A DNA stretch of 64,000 bases from an uncultured Sulfitobacter sp. GTDB taxonomy: Bacteria > Pseudomonadota > Alphaproteobacteria > Rhodobacterales > Rhodobacteraceae. The stretch lies in contig CAJJCJ010000005.1 of assembly GCA_905182645.1 (NCBI GenBank), positions 62,001 to 126,000 of the forward strand, given 5' to 3'. The notes beneath the pieces were generated by a model that made no database searches, was not told where the DNA came from, and saw only the letters and a program-made list of their open reading frames with translations. Shown piece after piece: positions 315 to 11,703 of the stretch. Position numbers and translations under genes: made by a program. Positions within the stretch are counted from its first letter, which is position 1; each line of letters begins with the position of its first letter.

Positions 315-644
315 ATGGCAGAAAATGTACGCCCTCGCGTTCGCGTCCCTAAAACGGCAGCGGCAGGCGAAGTGATTACAATCAAGTCGTTGATCAGCCA
401 CAAGATGGAATCTGGCCAACGAAAGGACGGGGACGGCAACGTTATCCCGCGTTCAATTATCAATCGGTTCGTCTGCGCGTTTAATGGCGAAACCGTCATT
501 GATGTGACGCTCGAAGCCGCTGTATCAACAAACCCATTCTTCGAATTTGAAGCAGTGGTGCCAGAAGCAGGTGACTTTAGCTTCACATGGTATGACGACG
601 ACGGATCGGTCTACGAAGAAACAAAATCGGTCGCGATCGCCTGA
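315..644 (+). CDS. soxZ: Thiosulfate oxidation carrier complex protein SoxZ
   Basis: 109 aa SoxZ-like protein (RVRVPKTAAAGEVITIKSLISHKMESGQRKD) directly after soxY. Confidence 0.95.
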   Translation: MAENVRPRVRVPKTAAAGEVITIKSLISHKMESGQRKDGDGNVIPRSIINRFVCAFNGETVIDVTLEAAVSTNPFFEFEAVVPEAGDFSFTWYDDDGSVYEETKSVAIA

Positions 645-671
645 TTTGAAATGTTTAGGGAGGAACGCCAT

Positions 672-1511
672 ATGAAACTGCAAAATGCAATTGCGGCGGC
701 CGCAATACTGTCATTCGCTGGCACAATGGGCTTTGCCCAAACTGACAACGAACTTACTGTTGAAGGCCAACTAATTTCAACTGAGGCTGCAGCGCCAGCA
801 CACATGGAAAACGTCGGCACGGTCTATTCAGGCTGGCGTTTCCGGTCTGAAGAAACGCAAGCCATGCAAACGGATGACTTCGATAACTCAGGTTTTGTGT
901 TTGTCGATGACGGTCTTGCGCTAATGGCGTCTGTGGACGGAAGCGAAGGTAAATCCTGCGCGTCTTGCCATGAAGACGCTGAAGAGTTCGCAGGGCTTAA
1001 GGCGCAAATGCCGCGGGTCAATGACAGCGGTGAGCTTGAGACCTTGGAAGATCTGGTCAACACCTGCCGCACCGAGCGGATGGGTGCAGAACCTTGGAAA
1101 TACAATGGATCCCAGATGGCTGCTGTTACAGCCGTGATTGGTTTGCAGTCTCGCGGAATGCCAGTTGATGTGGCAATCGACGGGGCGGCTGAATCCTTCT
1201 GGGAACGTGGTAAAGATCTGTACTATGCACGTGTTGGTCAGTTGGATCTGTCGTGCGCAAATTGTCATGAAGACAACTACGGCACCATGATCCGCGCCGA
1301 TCACCTAAGTCAGGGCCAGATCAACGGCTTCCCGACTTACCGTTTGAAAAATGCCAAGTTGAACACGGTGCATAGCCGTTTCTCTGGTTGCATGAAGAAC
1401 GTACGTGCGGAACCATATGCTATCGGTTCTGATGAGTTTAAAGCGCTCGAGCTTTATCTCGCATCACGTGGTACTGGGCTTTCTGTCGAAACGCCTTCGA
1501 TCCGTAACTAA
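672..1511 (+). CDS. soxA: Diheme c-type cytochrome SoxA
   Basis: Signal peptide MKLQNAIAAAAILSFAGTMGFAQ; heme motifs CASCH and CANCH; C-terminal SGCMKNVRAEPY Cys region; operon context. Confidence 0.95.
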   Translation: MKLQNAIAAAAILSFAGTMGFAQTDNELTVEGQLISTEAAAPAHMENVGTVYSGWRFRSEETQAMQTDDFDNSGFVFVDDGLALMASVDGSEGKSCASCHEDAEEFAGLKAQMPRVNDSGELETLEDLVNTCRTERMGAEPWKYNGSQMAAVTAVIGLQSRGMPVDVAIDGAAESFWERGKDLYYARVGQLDLSCANCHEDNYGTMIRADHLSQGQINGFPTYRLKNAKLNTVHSRFSGCMKNVRAEPYAIGSDEFKALELYLASRGTGLSVETPSIRN

Positions 1512-1516
1512 AAGAC

Positions 1517-1546
1517 ACGCCCGCGGCACTTTGTGCTTGCGGGCGT
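1517..1546 (+). promoter_or_regulatory. Intercistronic stem-loop between soxA and soxB
   Basis: Perfect 8-bp arms ACGCCCGC / GCGGGCGT; no T-run follows. Confidence 0.5.
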
Positions 1547-1603
1547 TGCTGCTTCTAACATATTCAATAATTAGAATGTAATACTATTATCTAGGATAGA
1601 CCC

Positions 1604-3298
1604 ATGATCTCTCGTCGTCATTTTGTTCAAGCCGGACTGGCTGCATCCGCCATTTATGGCGCATCTGGTTTTGGAAATTGGGGCCGGCTTTCCGCGCAGC
1701 AGGCGCTTACGCAGAATGACTTGCTTGATTTTAAGACGACCGGAAATGTGACGCTTATACACATCACCGACACCCATGCGCAGCTAAAGCCGGTTTATTT
1801 CCGCGAACCCGAAATCAACATCGGCGTCGGCGGCGTTATCGGCAAACCGCCGCATGTCACAGGCGCTGATTTCCGCAAGCTTTATGGCATTCCTGATGGG
1901 AGCGCGGCTGATTACGCGCTGACCTATGACGACTTTACCTCGCTTGCAGGCACCTACGGGCGCATGGGCGGCATGGACCGTATCTCAACCGTTGTGAATT
2001 CCATCCGTGCAGACCGCGCCGACGCGCTGGTGCTTGATGGCGGCGACACGTGGCAGGGCAGCCTGACTGCATTGCGCACCAATGGCCAAGACATGGTCAA
2101 TGTTTTCAATGCACTTGGCACTGATGCGATGACGTCGCATTGGGAATTCACGCTTGGCATTGATCGCGTGATGGAGATCGTCGAAAACGAGCTGAACTTC
2201 CCGTTTTTGGGTGCAAACATCTTTGACACCGAATGGGATGAACGTGCGTTTGAACCCTATAAAATGTTTGAACGTGGCGGTGTGCAAATCGCAGTCATCG
2301 GGCAAGCGTTCCCTTACATGCCAATCGCCAACCCCGGTTGGATGTTCCCAGACCTAAGCTTTGGCGTGCGCCAAGATAACATGGCCGAACTGATCGCCGA
2401 AGTCCGCGGCAAAGGCGCCGAACTTGTCGTGCTTTTGTCGCATAACGGCTTTGACGTTGACCGTAAACTGGCTGCAAATGTTGACGGCATCGATATCATT
2501 TTGACAGGGCACACACATGACGCCCTGCCAGAGCCAGTATTGGTCAATAAGACCTACCTGATTGCAAGCGGCAGCCACGGAAAATTTGTCACCCGTCTTG
2601 ATCTGGATGTGCGCGACGGCGAGATGAAGGGTATAAACCACCGCCTGATTCCCATCTTTACCGACGTGATTGCGCCCGATCCTGAAATGACTGCATTGGT
2701 GGATACCCAGCGCGCGCCATATAAAGCAGAGCTCGATGAAGTTATTGGCAAGACAGACTCGCTTTTGTATCGTCGCGGCAATTTCAACGGCACGTGGGAC
2801 GACCTCATTTGCAACGCGCTGATTTCTGAGCGCGAAGCCGACATCGCCTTGTCGCCTGGTTTCCGCTGGGGTGCATCCTTGCTACCCGGCCAGGATATCA
2901 CACGCGAAGATATCTTTAACGCGACCGCAATGAGCTATCCTGAAGCCTACCGCTCGGAAATGACGGGCGAAACGCTACATATCATCCTCGAAGACGTCGC
3001 AGACAACCTGTTCAACCCTGACCCTTATTACCAACAAGGCGGCGATATGGTGCGCGTTGGCGGCATGGGATACCGGATCGATATCAACCAACCACAGGGC
3101 AAGCGGATCACTGAGATGACGCTGCTGAAAACCGGCGAACGCATCGAGCCGTCACAGACCTACGTTGTGGCGGGCTGGGCAAGCGTGAACGAAGGCGCCG
3201 AAGGTCCCGCAATTTGGGACGTGGTCGAAAGCCATATTCGCCGCGAAGGCACGGTGACAGTGGACCCCAATACATCCGTTAAAGTTGTCGGCGTATAG
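1604..3298 (+). CDS. soxB: Thiosulfohydrolase SoxB
   Basis: Tat-type N-terminus MISRRHFVQAG; 5'-nucleotidase-family motifs HITDTHAQL, LDGGDTWQGS, GHTHD; position between soxA and soxC. Confidence 0.96.
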   Translation: MISRRHFVQAGLAASAIYGASGFGNWGRLSAQQALTQNDLLDFKTTGNVTLIHITDTHAQLKPVYFREPEINIGVGGVIGKPPHVTGADFRKLYGIPDGSAADYALTYDDFTSLAGTYGRMGGMDRISTVVNSIRADRADALVLDGGDTWQGSLTALRTNGQDMVNVFNALGTDAMTSHWEFTLGIDRVMEIVENELNFPFLGANIFDTEWDERAFEPYKMFERGGVQIAVIGQAFPYMPIANPGWMFPDLSFGVRQDNMAELIAEVRGKGAELVVLLSHNGFDVDRKLAANVDGIDIILTGHTHDALPEPVLVNKTYLIASGSHGKFVTRLDLDVRDGEMKGINHRLIPIFTDVIAPDPEMTALVDTQRAPYKAELDEVIGKTDSLLYRRGNFNGTWDDLICNALISEREADIALSPGFRWGASLLPGQDITREDIFNATAMSYPEAYRSEMTGETLHIILEDVADNLFNPDPYYQQGGDMVRVGGMGYRIDINQPQGKRITEMTLLKTGERIEPSQTYVVAGWASVNEGAEGPAIWDVVESHIRREGTVTVDPNTSVKVVGV

Positions 3299-3350
3299 GC
3301 GCCAATTGAAATACGAAATTGAGTGATAAATTCTCAAAGAGGAAAATTGA

Positions 3351-4619
3351 ATGACTGAGCAATTCAAAGGGATGAAGCCGTCACGACGCGCGTTCCTGCG
3401 CGGTGCTGCTGCCGTGGGTGGCGCGACCGCAATGGGTACGTCTGCCGCCGCGCAGGGTGATCCTGCGATCACCGAATTGAAGCCTTGGAACCAGTTCTTG
3501 GGTGAGGGCGTCGATGCAAGCCCATACGGTATGCCGTCAAAGTTCGAGGCCCATGTCCGTCGCCAAGATGTGCCGTGGCTCACCGCTGATCCTATTTCGT
3601 CGATCAACTTCACACCGCTTCACGAAATGGACGGGATCATCACGCCAAACGGCTTGTGTTTTGAGCGTCACCACGGCGGCGTTGCCGAAGTAGATCCCGC
3701 TGAACACCGGATTATGATCAACGGTTTGGTTGACCGCGAGCTGGTCTTCACGATGGAAGACCTGATGCGGTTCCCACGTGAAAACCATGTCTACTTTCTT
3801 GAATGTGCAGCGAACTCTGGCATGGAATGGCGTGGCGCGCAGCTGAATGGCTGCCAGTACACCCACGGCATGATCCACAACGTTATGTACACTGGCGTTC
3901 CGTTGCGGCTTTTGTTGGAAGAAGCTGGCGTCAAAACCGAAGGTAAATGGCTTCTGGCTGAGGGGGCCGATGCATCTGGTATGACCCGCTCCATTCCGAT
4001 GGAAAAGGCGCTTGATGATTGCCTCGTTGCATTCAAAATGAACGGCGAAGCCTTGCGTCCAGAGCAGGGTTATCCAGTGCGCCTTGTTGTTCCCGGATGG
4101 GAAGGCAACATGTGGATCAAGTGGTTGCGCCGGCTCGAAGTTGGCGACAAGCCTTGGCATCAACGCGAAGAAACGTCCAAATATACCGACCTGTTGGGCG
4201 ACGGACGTGCGCGTCGCTTTACGTGGGAGATGGACGCCAAATCGGTCATCACAAGCCCAAGCCCGCAAGCGCCGATCACACACGGCAAAGGCCAAACCGT
4301 CATCACTGGCGTCGCATGGTCAGGCCGTGGCACAATCCCGCGGGTTGATGTCACCATTGATGGCGGCGTGAACTGGCACGAGGCACGTATGTCAGGGCCA
4401 AGTTTGGACAAGTCCATGCACCGGTTTTACTATGAATTCGACTGGGATGGCTCAGAGTTATTGTTGCAAAGTCGCGCCCACGATTCCACAGGATATGTGC
4501 AACCCACCAAAGACCAGCTTCGCGCAGTCCGTGGCTTGAACTCAATCTATCACAACAACGGCATCCAAACCTGGTTTGTCAATTCGGACGGAGTGGCTGA
4601 AAATGTCGAAATTTCTTAA
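3351..4619 (+). CDS. soxC: Sulfite dehydrogenase molybdopterin subunit SoxC
   Basis: Tat signal (SRRAFLRGAAAVGG); sulfite-oxidase fold sequence (HHGGVAEVDPAEHRIMINGLV, FLECAANSGMEWRGAQ). Confidence 0.95.
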   Translation: MTEQFKGMKPSRRAFLRGAAAVGGATAMGTSAAAQGDPAITELKPWNQFLGEGVDASPYGMPSKFEAHVRRQDVPWLTADPISSINFTPLHEMDGIITPNGLCFERHHGGVAEVDPAEHRIMINGLVDRELVFTMEDLMRFPRENHVYFLECAANSGMEWRGAQLNGCQYTHGMIHNVMYTGVPLRLLLEEAGVKTEGKWLLAEGADASGMTRSIPMEKALDDCLVAFKMNGEALRPEQGYPVRLVVPGWEGNMWIKWLRRLEVGDKPWHQREETSKYTDLLGDGRARRFTWEMDAKSVITSPSPQAPITHGKGQTVITGVAWSGRGTIPRVDVTIDGGVNWHEARMSGPSLDKSMHRFYYEFDWDGSELLLQSRAHDSTGYVQPTKDQLRAVRGLNSIYHNNGIQTWFVNSDGVAENVEIS

Positions 4620-5652
4620 GAAATCCACGCTGACCATCGGTGGCGCAATGCTTGTGATAGGCGTCGCGCAAAGCGCTGCTGCACAACAATATAATCTGGG
4701 CCGCGAAGCGTTGCCAGAAGAGGTTGCTGCATGGGACATTGATGTCCGCCCCGACGGAAAAGGTCTGCCTGTGGGCAGTGGCGACGTCTACACTGGCGAA
4801 GAAATTTGGATCGATAAATGTGCATCCTGCCACGGTGACTTTGCCGAAGGGTCTGGCCGTTGGCCTGTCCTTGCAGGCGGTATTGATACGCTTGATAGCG
4901 AACGTCCGGTCAAAACGATCGGCTCGTACTGGCCGTATCTTTCGACCGTTTACGACTATGTGAACCGGGCAATGCCGTTTGGGAATGCGCAGTCACTGAC
5001 GGACGATGAAGTCTACGCGTTGACAGCTTACATATTGTATTCAAATGATATTGTTGGCGGTGAGTTCACGCTTACAAACGATAACTTCCTTGACGTCCAA
5101 ATGCCAAACGCTGGTAATTTCTATCCTGATGACCGGGTAGAGGTTGAAATGCCACTGTTTAGCGTTCAGGCATGCATGTCCGATTGTAAGCCAAGCGTCG
5201 AAATCACGATGCTTGCAGCCGTTGTCGACGTGACACCGGAAGCGAAAACTGACGCTGTTGTTGAAGAAGCAGCAGCTGAACCCGTAGCCGTGGAAGAGGT
5301 CGCCGTTGTTGAAGTGGCCGCTTTGGATATGGCACTGGTTGCCGCAGGTGAAGGTGCGTTCCGGAAATGCAAGTCGTGCCACCAGGTCGGTGACAGCGCG
5401 CGCAATCGCACAGGTCCAATTCTTAATAATATTGTTGGCAATCCCGCAGGCGGCGTAGAGGGCTTCCGTTACTCTAGTCCAATGACTGAGGCAGCAGACG
5501 CTGGCCTTTTGTGGACAAGTGAAGAACTGACCGCATTTTTGACTGATCCACGCGGCTATATGCGCGGCACAAAGATGACGTTCCGCGGTGTTCGCAAGGA
5601 AGAAGACATCGCTGCAATCATTGAATATCTGAAAAGTTTTGAGGCACAATAA
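4603..5652 (+). CDS. soxD: Cytochrome c subunit SoxD of sulfur dehydrogenase
   Basis: Two CxxCH motifs (CASCH, CKSCH); overlaps the soxC end by 17 nt; internal Ala/Val/Glu-rich linker. Confidence 0.93.
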   Translation: MSKFLKKSTLTIGGAMLVIGVAQSAAAQQYNLGREALPEEVAAWDIDVRPDGKGLPVGSGDVYTGEEIWIDKCASCHGDFAEGSGRWPVLAGGIDTLDSERPVKTIGSYWPYLSTVYDYVNRAMPFGNAQSLTDDEVYALTAYILYSNDIVGGEFTLTNDNFLDVQMPNAGNFYPDDRVEVEMPLFSVQACMSDCKPSVEITMLAAVVDVTPEAKTDAVVEEAAAEPVAVEEVAVVEVAALDMALVAAGEGAFRKCKSCHQVGDSARNRTGPILNNIVGNPAGGVEGFRYSSPMTEAADAGLLWTSEELTAFLTDPRGYMRGTKMTFRGVRKEEDIAAIIEYLKSFEAQ

Positions 5653-5689
5653 CAGGCGATACATTCACACACCAAAGGGAGATCAGACG

Positions 5690-6139
5690 ATGATGGCATT
5701 CACAAGACGCGCGATGATTGGGGCCGTTCTGGCACTTGGCATTGCATCACCAGCCTTGGCACAAGATGATGGCATCCACCGCTTGGCGCTGCAGATTAGC
5801 GATAATAATCCGCAAAAGATGACGACAGTGTTGAACGTCGCGGCCAATGTGACGCGGCTTTATCAGGATCGCGGCGAAGAAGTCGAAATCCGTATCGTCG
5901 CGTTCAACGCGGGCCTTCATATGTTGCGTGAAGACACGTCGCCAGTCTTGGAACGCCTGACATCTTTCGGCCAATCAATGCCCAATGTCACTTTTGCGGC
6001 CTGCGGAAACACCATCACAGGCATGACAAAGAAAGAGGGCGTCGCACCGCCGATCTCTACACATGCAGAAGTTGTGCCTGCAGGTGTGGTCGAACTGATG
6101 GCACTCGATCAAGCCGGTTGGACAGTCATCCGACCTTAA
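5690..6139 (+). CDS. Periplasmic DsrE-family protein
   Basis: Signal peptide then DsrE-like body (RLALQISDNNPQKMTTVLNVAANVTRLYQDRGEEVEIRIVAFNAGLHML); directly downstream of soxD. Confidence 0.8.
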   Translation: MMAFTRRAMIGAVLALGIASPALAQDDGIHRLALQISDNNPQKMTTVLNVAANVTRLYQDRGEEVEIRIVAFNAGLHMLREDTSPVLERLTSFGQSMPNVTFAACGNTITGMTKKEGVAPPISTHAEVVPAGVVELMALDQAGWTVIRP

Positions 6140-6146
6140 ACCTCAA

Positions 6147-6179
6147 CAGGCCAACAGAAAACTACTTTTCGTTGGCCTG
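6147..6179 (+). promoter_or_regulatory. Strong stem-loop between the DsrE and DUF302 genes
   Basis: CAGGCCAAC-A-GAAAA-CTAC-TTTTC-GTTGGCCTG: 14 bp of stem with one bulged A and a 4-nt loop. Confidence 0.6.
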
Positions 6180-6220
6180 AGATACTGTGCACCGAAACCT
6201 ACCAGGACTGGAGAAACCAA

Positions 6221-6652
6221 ATGTTTAAAACCGCAATCACAATTTCGCTCATCACCCTGTCGACGGTCGCGGGCGCGCAGGATTTCACCGCATACGATTT
6301 TGACGGATCATTCGATGATGCAACTTTTGGCGTCGAAAACGCGATCATCGATCACGGCTTGGTCATAGATTACATAAGCCACGTCGGCGAAATGTTGAGC
6401 CGCACACAGACAGATGTCGGCAGCGACGTGACGCTTTATGACAATGCACAAATATTTGTATTTTGCTCCGCAGTGTTATCGCGCAAAATGATGGAGGCGG
6501 ATCCGACCAACATCGCGTTTTGCCCCTACGGAGTGTTTGTGGCCGACACAGATGGCGCTGTGACGGTCGGATATCGACACTATCCAGATGGCGCCATGCA
6601 AGAGGTTCAGGCGTTACTGGACGAGATTGCGCGCGAAGCAGTCGGCGAATAG
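6221..6652 (+). CDS. Exported DUF302-family protein
   Basis: Signal peptide; DUF302-like core ([22 protein letters not shown]...[33 protein letters not shown]). Confidence 0.75.
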
Positions 6653-6660
6653 GACGAAAT

Positions 6661-7884
6661 ATGAACTACCAAGATTTTTTTGAGAATAAGCTGGCTGACC
6701 TTCGCGATGAAGGAAATTACCGCGTGTTCGCCGACCTAGAGCGGCACCAAGGTGCGTTCCCCAAAGCGACCAACCGGATCGACGATGTCGTCCGCGAGGT
6801 GACGATCTGGTGTTCCAATGACTATCTGGGCATGGGGCAACACCCCGACGTCTTGGCGGCGATGCATGAAGCATTGGACCTAAGCGGCGCAGGGGCAGGC
6901 GGGACACGAAATATCTCCGGCACGACGCACTATCATGTTCTGTTGGAAAAAGAATTGGCCGACCTGCATGGCAAGCAGGACGCGCTGTTGTTCACATCCG
7001 GCTATGTGTCCAATTGGGCCGCGTTAAGCACGCTTGCGTCGCGGCTGCCTGACTGTTTGGTGCTGTCGGATGCGTTGAACCATTCCTCCATGATCGAAGG
7101 TATTCGGCATTCGCGCGCAGACTGCAAAGTCTGGCGTCACAATGATGTCGCGCACCTAGAGGAATTACTGGCAGCGCAGCCTTTGGACCGACCCAAGTTG
7201 ATCGCGTTCGAAAGCGTCTATTCGATGGACGGTGACATTGCGCCAATCGCGGAAATCTGCGCGCTTGCCGCAAAGTATAATGCGATGACCTACCTTGATG
7301 AAGTTCACGCCGTTGGCCTTTATGGGCCGCGCGGCGGTGGCATCGCTGAACGCGAAGGCTTGATGGACCAGATCACCCTGATCGAGGGCACATTGGGCAA
7401 GGCATTTGGCGTTGTTGGTGGCTATATTGCCGCCTCAGCCGCGTTGTGTGATTTCATTCGCAGCTTTGCGAGTGGCTTCATCTTTACCACCGCGCTGCCA
7501 CCTGCGGTTGCCGCTGGGGCCACTGCGTCGATCCGGCATCTTAAGCAAAGCCGCGTTGAGCGGGACTTGCAAAAGCTCAGGGTCGCCGAGGTCCGCGAAA
7601 AGCTTACTGAAATCGGCATTCCACACGTTGATAACCCAAGCCATATCATTCCTGTGATGGTTGGTGATCCGGTGAAATGCAAATTCATCTCGGACATGCT
7701 TCTGGACGAGTTTGGCATCTATATCCAACCGATCAATTACCCAACCGTCCCCAAAGGCACCGAGCGTTTGCGTATCACGCCGTCGCCTGTGCACACCCCC
7801 GAAGACGTGGACAGGCTTGTGACTGCATTGGGTGATCTTTGGACCCGTTGCCAGCTGGCGCGGATGCCGATTGCGGCGCAATGA
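6661..7884 (+). CDS. hemA: 5-aminolevulinate synthase (C4 pathway)
   Basis: [82 protein letters not shown] lysine motif. Confidence 0.95.
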
Positions 7885-8333
7885 TCAAAGGCTTTCCTGA
7901 TCTGCCGCCGATTTGGTGGGCGGGAAGCATGGGCACGATCTATCTTGCCAAATGGTTCGCGCCTAGCTGGCATTGGCAAGCTGACGTTGTGAATATTCCA
8001 TCCAAGATTATCTTTTACACGGGGTTGGCGCTTATCGCATGGTCAGCCACGTGGTTTTGGCAGCGAAAGACACCGATTGAGCCGCACAACACCCCCCAAA
8101 CGCTTATTATTGAGGGTCCGTACCGCGTGTCTCGAAACCCGATCTATCTTGGGTTGGTCATGCTGACACTCGGGTCGGCGCTTGGGCATACCTCACTGGT
8201 TGGATTGATGGCGACAGTGCTTTTGTGGTGGGTCCTCGATCTGCGTTTCGCGCGCAAAGAGGAAAAGTTGCTTGTCGCGACGTTTGGTGACGCCGCCACC
8301 GCCTATCTGGCACGCACGCGGCGTTGGATTTAG
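7881..8333 (+). CDS. Isoprenylcysteine carboxyl methyltransferase / phospholipid methyltransferase-like membrane protein
   Basis: [21 protein letters not shown] motif and multiple TM segments; start overlaps the hemA stop by 4 nt. Confidence 0.75.
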
Positions 8334-8343
8334 ACGCGTAAAA

Positions 8344-8787
8344 TCATTCAGCGATCATCTGCTCATAAGCACCCATCGCGACATCCGCAGTGACCACAGG
8401 CATATCTCGGGCAACCCACCCTGCACCAAGGCTGTTCCCAAGTATGCCCTCAGACACGTCAACAACGCCTGTAATTCCGTTCTTTTCAAGAACCGACGTA
8501 ACATAGCTTGTCCGCCCGCCTGTTGCGCAAATGAGCCCGAAATTTGCGTTCGGTTGCGCCGCAAACAGCGCCGTCAACTTCGCGCCAAAATCGCGACTAT
8601 GCATGGTCAACGCCAGTGCGCCTTGTGCCACGCCAGTCTCGGCCCATTCTTCTGGGGTGCGGATATCGATCAAAATCAAATCACCTGTTTGCATCGCCTC
8701 ATATGCAGCGGGCGCCGAAAGGATGGCCGTTTCAGCAACGGCTGCTTGCGCAGATACACTCGCCACTATCGCAAGGGCTAACTTCAT
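8344..8787 (-). CDS. Periplasmic rhodanese-like protein
   Basis: Signal peptide MKLALAIVASVSAQAAVA; LILIDIRTPEEWAETGV; active-site loop CATGGRTS. Confidence 0.85.
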   Translation of the reverse strand: MKLALAIVASVSAQAAVAETAILSAPAAYEAMQTGDLILIDIRTPEEWAETGVAQGALALTMHSRDFGAKLTALFAAQPNANFGLICATGGRTSYVTSVLEKNGITGVVDVSEGILGNSLGAGWVARDMPVVTADVAMGAYEQMIAE

Positions 8788-9741
8788 TTATTCAAACTCC
8801 ATTTGCTCGTAGACGCGCCCAGCATTCTTGGTCGCCAGCTCTTCAAACGTGTCCAGATTTGCATAGGGACTTTGGTCGACATAATATGCCTCCGCAAGGC
8901 CTCCGCCGTCATCAAGTAGGATGCCAATCTGACTGCGAAGGTATTCTAGGTACCCTTTCGTGTAACGACGGACTTGATCCATATTTGTAGGGTGTCCGTG
9001 CCCAGGGATGACATATGTTGCGTTCAACACCTCAAATTCGTTGTCCCATGTTTCCAGCCAATCAAGGGTATAGGTATCCTCAAAAATGGGCAGCATTCGT
9101 TCATGAAACGCCATGTCGCCCGCAATAACGAGGCTCTGTTTTGGCAGCCAGACCACAACGTCGCCCGCACTGTGCGATGGGCCTAAATAAAGCACCTCAA
9201 TCTGAAATTCGCCAAGCTCAAGCGAATATTCATCGACAAATGTTTCCGTTGGCCCCTGCACGAACGTGCCCTCGCTGCGCTCTTTATTCAGCCGCTGCAT
9301 AGACGCCAAACTACGAAAACCGCGCTCCTCGAATTCTGCGGCAGCATCAACATGGGCAATGATCTTAACGCCTTGGCCAACCCAATATGAATTGCCCAGC
9401 ATGGCATGCCCCTGACCGTTTTCATCAACAACAAGCACGACCTCTTGGTCGGTAATCGCCTTGATTTCATCGTGCAGCGCCTCGGCCAGCAGATATGACC
9501 CGCCACCATTGACCACGACGACACCTTCACCGGTGATGATAAAGCTCAGGTTGTTGTTGTGCCCCGCATTGTCATACGTGGGCGGCGCCGTTGCGCCGGT
9601 GGCCGAAAACACACCGGGAATAAATTCAACTGGCTTGGCGTACAGCATGGAACCGGGGTATTGATCCGCAATATCCTCGCTGGCAAAAAGCGATGTAGGG
9701 GCCAAAAGGCACAGCATTTTCAAGACAGATTTCATGTTCAT
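8788..9741 (-). CDS. Exported MBL-fold (SoxH-like) protein with a non-canonical metal motif
   Basis: Signal peptide; MBL architecture (LGPSHSAGDVVVWLPKQSLVIAGDMAF, VIPGHGHPT); HxHxDH position reads DENGQGHAMLGN. Confidence 0.75.
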   Translation of the reverse strand: MNMKSVLKMLCLLAPTSLFASEDIADQYPGSMLYAKPVEFIPGVFSATGATAPPTYDNAGHNNNLSFIITGEGVVVVNGGGSYLLAEALHDEIKAITDQEVVLVVDENGQGHAMLGNSYWVGQGVKIIAHVDAAAEFEERGFRSLASMQRLNKERSEGTFVQGPTETFVDEYSLELGEFQIEVLYLGPSHSAGDVVVWLPKQSLVIAGDMAFHERMLPIFEDTYTLDWLETWDNEFEVLNATYVIPGHGHPTNMDQVRRYTKGYLEYLRSQIGILLDDGGGLAEAYYVDQSPYANLDTFEELATKNAGRVYEQMEFE

Positions 9742-10700: not shown

Positions 10701-10871
10701 TCACGCAAGCGCTGTCGATTTTTTCTCGACCTGTGCCTCTGCCAGATTAAGCGCGCGTTTGGCGGCACGGTTTTTGCGGATCACCAAAGCAATCAAACCA
10801 ACATAAAGTAGGATTGACCCGCCATAAGCCGCGAGAACCGGTAGGGCATATTTTCCAAGATCAGGGATCAT
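10701..10871 (-). CDS. ccmD: Heme exporter protein CcmD
   Basis: 56 aa single-TM protein MIPDLGKYALPVLAAYGGSILLYVGLIALVIRKNRAAKRAL...; ATGA overlap with ccmC. Confidence 0.85.
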   Translation of the reverse strand: MIPDLGKYALPVLAAYGGSILLYVGLIALVIRKNRAAKRALNLAEAQVEKKSTALA

Positions 10872-11596
10872 CGTGACGGCATCCTTTTCATAAGAGCCAC
10901 AGCGCGGCGCATCCGAATTTCGCTGCGCGTCAACACAAGAACAAGAACGATAAACAGCAGAACAAATCCGGCGATCGACAGCACTAACGGCTGCCAAAAC
11001 ACATCTGAAACATGCTCCTCCTTGTCCAAAGACAGCGATGCGCCCTGATGTAGCCCTTGGTTCCAAAAATTAACTGCATAGCGTGAAAGCAGCGCAAATA
11101 CCGAACCAACCATGCATAAAACCGAAGTTAAATCAGCGGCGCCGTCAGGGTCTTCAATGGCCGACCACAGGGCAAGATAGCCAAGATAGAACAAAAATAA
11201 GATCAAGAAAGACGTCAACCTCGGGTCCCATGCCCAATACGTACCCCACATTGGTTTGCCCCAAATCGCCCCCGTAAGCAGGGCCACCAAGGTAAAGACG
11301 ATACCAACATGTGCAGCAGATTTCGCAAGCAGCGCAGATACATGGTGCCTGCGAATCAACCAGATCAGCGAGGTGACAAGCATCATGATCCACGCGTTGA
11401 TCGCCATCAGCGCCGCAGGGACATGCAAATAGATAATTTTGACGGTCGATCCTTGGCGATAGTCATCCGGCGTCAGGAAAAACCCCCAAAAAAGGGAGCT
11501 CACAACGCAAATTGCCGCCATTGGGATCAGCACAGGCAAAAGCCGATCAGTCACCGCGGTAAACCGTCGCGGGTTCGCATACTCCCAGATATTCAT
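10868..11596 (-). CDS. ccmC: Heme exporter protein CcmC
   Basis: WGxxW-type heme-handling segment WGKPMWGTYWAWDPRLTS; NIWEYANPRRF start; polytopic membrane protein. Confidence 0.95.
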   Translation of the reverse strand: MNIWEYANPRRFTAVTDRLLPVLIPMAAICVVSSLFWGFFLTPDDYRQGSTVKIIYLHVPAALMAINAWIMMLVTSLIWLIRRHHVSALLAKSAAHVGIVFTLVALLTGAIWGKPMWGTYWAWDPRLTSFLILFLFYLGYLALWSAIEDPDGAADLTSVLCMVGSVFALLSRYAVNFWNQGLHQGASLSLDKEEHVSDVFWQPLVLSIAGFVLLFIVLVLVLTRSEIRMRRAVALMKRMPSR

Positions 11597-11703
11597 TTTT
11601 TCGTGCCTTTGTTTATTATCTCGCATACAAAACAACAAATTCGAATATGAATCAAAGGCAAATGTGATTTGATCCTCGGTGGCATTCAGATTAAGGGCGT
11701 GAA

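Follow-up and report, generated by a model that had tools for sequence, protein, structure and literature searches.

The soxH gene in the 64,000-nucleotide stretch of DNA analysed here (henceforth the window) encodes an MBL-fold protein in which the HxHxDH motif of metal-dependent MBL hydrolases has given way to N-G-Q-G-H-A, and this altered motif is a fixed hallmark of SoxH that is under strong purifying selection. A sequence-only reading of the same DNA had placed N-G-Q-G-H-A at the HxHxDH position, which we confirm (N108 to A113), and had offered two explanations, a catalytic enzyme with a degenerate partner or a subfamily with altered metal use. Judged by the residues that are conserved, the latter seems favoured, with a conserved pseudoenzyme as its main rival. 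Our working proposal, to which we give about an even chance of being right, is a SoxH dedicated to the Sox system in the periplasm, where it would use a rebuilt site for a single metal and probably act beside SoxB on sulfur species of the Sox cycle.

The gene product starts with an N-terminal Sec-type signal peptide, followed by the MBL-fold domain; a plus-strand reading of 8788-9741 contains several stops and was discarded. The Lactamase_B model of Pfam (PF00753) matches with 32.4 bits (gathering score 22.7), although the match starts only at residue 124. In the AlphaFold2 model of the protein (mean pLDDT 81.3), residues 101-120 have block means of 90 and 88. A Foldseek search with this model retrieved the MBL-fold protein 8d2z (E 5e-16), the other best PDB matches being the mono-zinc B2 enzymes CphA and Sfh-I, and both Pfam and Foldseek place SoxH within the alpha-beta-beta-alpha fold of the MBL superfamily. 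Among named organisms, Yoonia and Loktanella are the closest relatives. The sole cysteine, C11, lies inside the signal peptide, which rules out Cys-based chemistry in the window SoxH: with no cysteine beyond that point, it cannot carry sulfur on a cysteine of its own.

The region of interest contains VVDENGQGHAMLGNSYW and reads D-E-N-G-Q-G-H-A-M-L-G-N. It aligns without gaps to relatives of the form NTHxHPDHxxGN, with N108, Q110, H112 and A113 at BBL positions 116, 118, 120 and 121, so that none of the four HxHxDH ligands remains and 120 has acquired a His. According to the AlphaFold2 models, SoxH and the canonical SoxG begin the helix after the motif at the same place, position 119 (G111 and P132, respectively). 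H112 therefore takes the place of the usual Asp at 120, and A113 that of the usual His at 121. Given this common helix start and the gapless flanking spacing, a shift of one residue that would bring H112 to 121 is not favoured by the models. The sequence-only reading was also right that downstream elements are kept: GPSHSAGD, AGDM and PGHG are all present and supply H190, D209 and H248 at the ligand positions 196, 221 and 263. The same holds for its description of the neighbouring MBL gene, soxG, as having a normal THAHPDH motif.

Among 144 distinct SoxH sequences ENGQGHA occurs in 142, the remaining two reading ENGQGHS and ENAQGHA. Because ENGQGH was one of the two patterns with which we scanned named genome contigs, the 80 loci from that scan favour the motif; no such bias affects the 69 sequences retrieved by protein similarity alone, with no motif pattern, and 68 of them carry ENGQGHA. 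Seven residues (N108, Q110, H112, H190, D194, D209 and H248) are invariant in all 144 sequences and A113 is found in 143, while dN/dS of soxH against near relatives is about 0.05-0.09. In another class of the phylum, the SoxH encoded within a sox cluster (locus L265) also has the altered motif, as ENAQGHS. A motif nearly unchanged in every SoxH found is a fixed feature and not the defect of one strain. The earlier reading had suggested examining its conservation in homologues, with HxHxDH throughout the same context as the sign of a strain-specific lesion, and no such pattern emerged for SoxH. The idea that the motif reflects a lesion of this strain, a sequencing error or a frame shift is almost certainly wrong, refuted by the 142 sequences from several families and the low dN/dS, and at odds with the slightly changed motif in a second class. 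As a separate observation, 21 of the 144 SoxH, including that of Paracoccus pantotrophus, have a CxxC (CTSC or CTKC, residues 224-227) directly before the invariant W228 (loci L121, L125, L102-L106, L108-L114, L119 and others); the window SoxH does not.

The identity of the protein was established through P. pantotrophus, where a plasmid search recovered an ortholog with 62.6% identity (locus L121) that reads NENGQGHAMLGN; its gene comes after the soxG ortholog, with soxC and soxD further upstream. The window gene likewise sits behind soxG in a sox cluster, and together the orthology, the shared motif and the gene order identify its product as SoxH and the odd motif as a property of SoxH. The annotated P. 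ferrooxidans cluster runs, in order, soxXYZABCD, a cytochrome, a flavoprotein, an MBL gene of the soxG type and one of the soxH type. In Sulfitobacter, sox clusters are reported to contain soxG and soxH with DUF302, 5-aminolevulinate synthase and YeeE genes alongside (PMC11034169), and a Ruegeria locus has the same arrangement as in that survey. The window shows no essential difference from the SoxH loci of P. pantotrophus and roseobacters; it has no YeeE between the genes and a rhodanese directly downstream. Over its full length the window SoxH matches best, among NCBIfam models, TIGR04558 and TIGR04559 (108 and 131 bits), SoxH-related, PQQ-linked families described as quinoprotein relay system zinc metallohydrolase 1 and 2, yet these scores fall short of the curated cut-offs of 300 and 280 bits, and P. 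pantotrophus SoxH, with 115 and 137 bits, is also far below them. PQQ-linked proteins have been named SoxH as well (PMC11582611). Functions proposed for Campylobacterota or PQQ-linked SoxH should not be transferred before the motifs have been compared.

Features of the window around soxH, with residues given in SoxH numbering.
Feature	Position	Strand	Description
Divergent sox cluster	315-6652	plus	soxZ to DUF302
soxZ	315-644	plus	
soxA	651-1511	plus	
soxB	1604-3298	plus	
soxC	3351-4619	plus	
soxD	about 4603-5652	plus	
DsrE-like gene	5693-6139	plus	
DUF302 gene	6221-6652	plus	
5-aminolevulinate synthase (ALAS) gene	6655-7884		inside the sox region
PEMT/ICMT-like homolog	7839-8333		membrane methyltransferase
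Rhodanese-like periplasmic protein	8344-8787	minus	PF00581; ATG abuts soxH stop codon
soxH	9741-8788	minus	317 aa; ATG at 9741, stop at 8790-8788
H248	8998-9000	minus	His263 metal-ligand equivalent; 144/144 SoxH, invariant in both clades
D209	9115-9117	minus	corresponds to position 221, where glyoxalase-type MBLs have a bridging Asp; 144/144 SoxH, invariant in both clades
H190	9172-9174	minus	His196 metal-ligand equivalent; 144/144 SoxH, invariant in sister clade
N108-G109-Q110-G111-H112-A113	9420-9403	minus	altered motif, BBL positions 116-121
soxG	10652-9738	minus	MBL with canonical THAHPDH, twin-arginine-type signal
ccmD/ccmC-like genes	10701-11066, 10868-11638	minus	cytochrome c maturation, directly upstream of soxG

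The neighbouring SoxG is a canonical MBL protein (AlphaFold2 mean pLDDT 85.6). All 110 SoxG relatives carry THxHPDH and 103 have an RR signal. Its gene overlaps the start of soxH by 4 bases (ATGA), and the two adjoin in 85 of 110 loci, the other 25 SoxH loci having no adjacent soxG. The ccm-like genes upstream of soxG run in the same direction, so sox accessory and cytochrome maturation genes may be cotranscribed. ALAS homologs accompany soxH at 52 of 110 loci, which suggests that Sox cytochromes have a heme supply of their own. A rhodanese lies at most 1.5 kb downstream of soxH in just 16 of 162 SoxH loci, and several of these 16 are duplicates, so that the two genes are not universally linked; in the window, the rhodanese is flanked by the membrane methyltransferase homolog.

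SoxB was present in all 42 SoxH genomes tested. These comprise 26 genomes, a further 15 (10 of the window's genus and 5 from other alphaproteobacterial families) and one from another class (L265), whose SoxB was recognised by similarity to the window SoxB and not by a curated cut-off. Included among the 42 are 15 genomes in which soxH lies outside the sox cluster, and since every one of these has SoxB, linkage alone does not explain the co-occurrence. Within the window's genus, SoxB was found in 14/14 genomes with SoxH versus 2/23 without it (one-sided Fisher p 2e-8, uncorrected for relatedness). SoxB without SoxH is common (12 of 42 tested genomes lacking both SoxH and its sister clade, and 8 of 10 with the sister clade only), which means that SoxH is not essential to Sox. 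In many Rhodobacteraceae soxH is located outside the sox cluster, mostly beside pntAB and kynurenine-pathway genes (L101-L113, L115, L120), and such relocated copies are often next to a PEMT/ICMT-like membrane methyltransferase gene. The sox cluster of the other class (L265:8548-18865) encodes SoxH together with DsbG-like and GlcG-like proteins; a canonical MBL gene, distinct from soxH, adjoins its soxC.

A sister clade of SoxH, at 33-38% identity, carries [TS]G[GA]QDHR in 25/25 sequences. In a tree built without the motif columns, SoxH and this TGGQDHR clade share one branch (SH-aLRT 99), while their nearest relatives outside it have HxHxDH and are separated from them. This topology points to a single replacement of the motif in the common ancestor of the two clades, with HxHxDH giving way in its entirety to (N/G)-G-Q-(G/D)-H-(A/R). 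Both clades have Q110, H112, H190, D209 and H248 in common, but the TGGQDHR clade has Gly at 116, Asp at 119 and Arg at 121, and part of it sits in arsenic/thiol-type operons and not with sox. These operons often run ArsR, ArsP permease, small thioredoxin, MBL, OsmC and cation transporter (CDF), complete or in part (L124:7317-11128; also L123, L080, L081, L085, L086, L214 and L245), and on one plasmid the operon lies beside arsenite-oxidase-type genes. The 8d2z-type MBLs ([TS]HYHAVR ... PGRG), which provide the closest solved structure to SoxH by sequence and fold, have an altered motif too. Their loss is complementary: they keep the HxH of Zn1 and lack Asp120, His121 and His263, whereas SoxH keeps 221 and 263. 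We found this group at L018, L020-L024, L027, L041, L099, L100, L228, L231, L233 and L234.

The pocket has five potential metal-binding side chains that are invariant across SoxH and its sister clade: Q110, H112, H190, D209 and H248. SoxH would hold one metal, probably Zn(II), at the Zn2 position through H112 (standing in for Asp120), D209 and H248; H190 could be a fourth ligand, and Q110 may bind weakly or lie in the second shell. Against such a rebuilt site, the main Zn2 ligand H121 is lost (A113), and we know of no precedent for metal binding by a His at 120. Partial parallels are offered by the B2 enzymes (CphA, Sfh-I) and the B3 enzyme GOB, which like SoxH have the MBL fold, have lost the His at 116 and have a site expected to lie around Zn2. 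They retain His118, Asp120 and His263, whereas SoxH has Gln118, His120 and Ala121 and, unlike B2, Asp for Cys at 221; of the subclass B2 signature (Asn116, His118, Asp120, Cys221, His263) SoxH shows Asn116 and His263 and differs with Gln118, His120 and Asp221. With Asn or Gln at 116, B2 and some B3 beta-lactamases function with one zinc, bound at Zn2 (PMC5599593). As far as the alignment tells, SoxH lies beyond this mono-zinc precedent, with 116, 118, 120 and 121 all changed, 221 and 263 kept and a new invariant His at 120.

The metal in SoxH would serve either to activate a single water or as the binding point for one thiolate or sulfonate. Its association with Sox and its gene neighbours lead us to suggest a role on SoxYZ-bound or small sulfur species: the substrate would be a sulfur species of the Sox cycle outside the reach of SoxB, for instance SoxYZ-bound sulfane or sulfonate or a small persulfide, with the linked proteins (rhodanese, DsrE-like, YeeE) passing it on. 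SoxG would be a canonical di-metal enzyme, exported folded and carrying out a separate hydrolysis. A bolder version, which we consider rather unlikely but worth stating, is that SoxH and the sister clade share a new Gln-x-His arrangement with a single 3-His-1-Asp site (H112, H190, H248, D209), serving an undescribed reaction on sulfane sulfur, protein-bound or small, in Sox and, in the ArsP operons, a related one on thiols or metalloids.

Of the two explanations in the sequence-only reading, the pairing of a catalytic enzyme with a degenerate partner stands in its first half, given the canonical SoxG, but the label degenerate is unsupported because the replaced positions are invariant and dN/dS is so low. 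A subfamily with altered metal use gains support from the fixed motif, its modified form in one sister clade and the retained H190, D209 and H248. The MBL superfamily does include conserved pseudoenzymes such as CPSF100, and SoxH could be another: an MBL fold without a catalytic metal, serving as scaffold, chaperone or sulfur-species binder for Sox proteins and binding SoxYZ, SoxG or another of them. The disappearance of all four HxHxDH ligands beside a partner that never loses them fits this picture, as does the translational coupling of soxG and soxH implied by the ATGA overlap and their frequent adjacency. Lost catalysis, however, would not demand the same five pocket residues in every SoxH and in the sister clade, and the loci without an adjacent soxG speak against it too; we see the pseudoenzyme as a serious possibility, though the less probable one.

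For Sulfurimonas and Sulfurovum, both Campylobacterota, proteins called SoxH have been proposed to release sulfate from SoxY instead of SoxB (PMC9122950, PMC10045233). That the alphaproteobacterial protein is such a hydrolase, freeing sulfate from SoxY in SoxB's place, is improbable despite this published proposal, for all 42 SoxH genomes tested already have SoxB and the motif is without the ligands of a di-metal hydrolase. The name SoxH may also cover different proteins, since the non-alphaproteobacterial L265 cluster has both a canonical HYHADH MBL by soxC and a NENAQGHS SoxH by soxB. Equally a sulfur context, the adjacent rhodanese in the window and the availability of His/His/Asp (H112, H190, D209) might suggest a mononuclear-iron persulfide oxidiser like the MBL-fold persulfide dioxygenases of the ETHE1 type. 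The iron ligands of one of these, PaPDO, lie at what we take to be BBL positions 116, 196 and 221, the first of which is Asn in 144/144 SoxH. They are H71, H146 and D163 (PMC12856154). SoxH matches NCBIfam models of class B and SoxH-related type, the 25 best matches listed include none for a dioxygenase, and we regard this function as very improbable.

The altered motif matters because soxH is a named gene of a model marine sulfur-oxidation pathway and occurs with soxB across many roseobacters. The literature treats SoxH as a metallohydrolase, at times as a stand-in for SoxB. The changed residues leave alphaproteobacterial SoxH unable to form the usual di-zinc site; the metallohydrolase label should therefore not be extended to it, and even the designation zinc hydrolase appears doubtful for SoxH.
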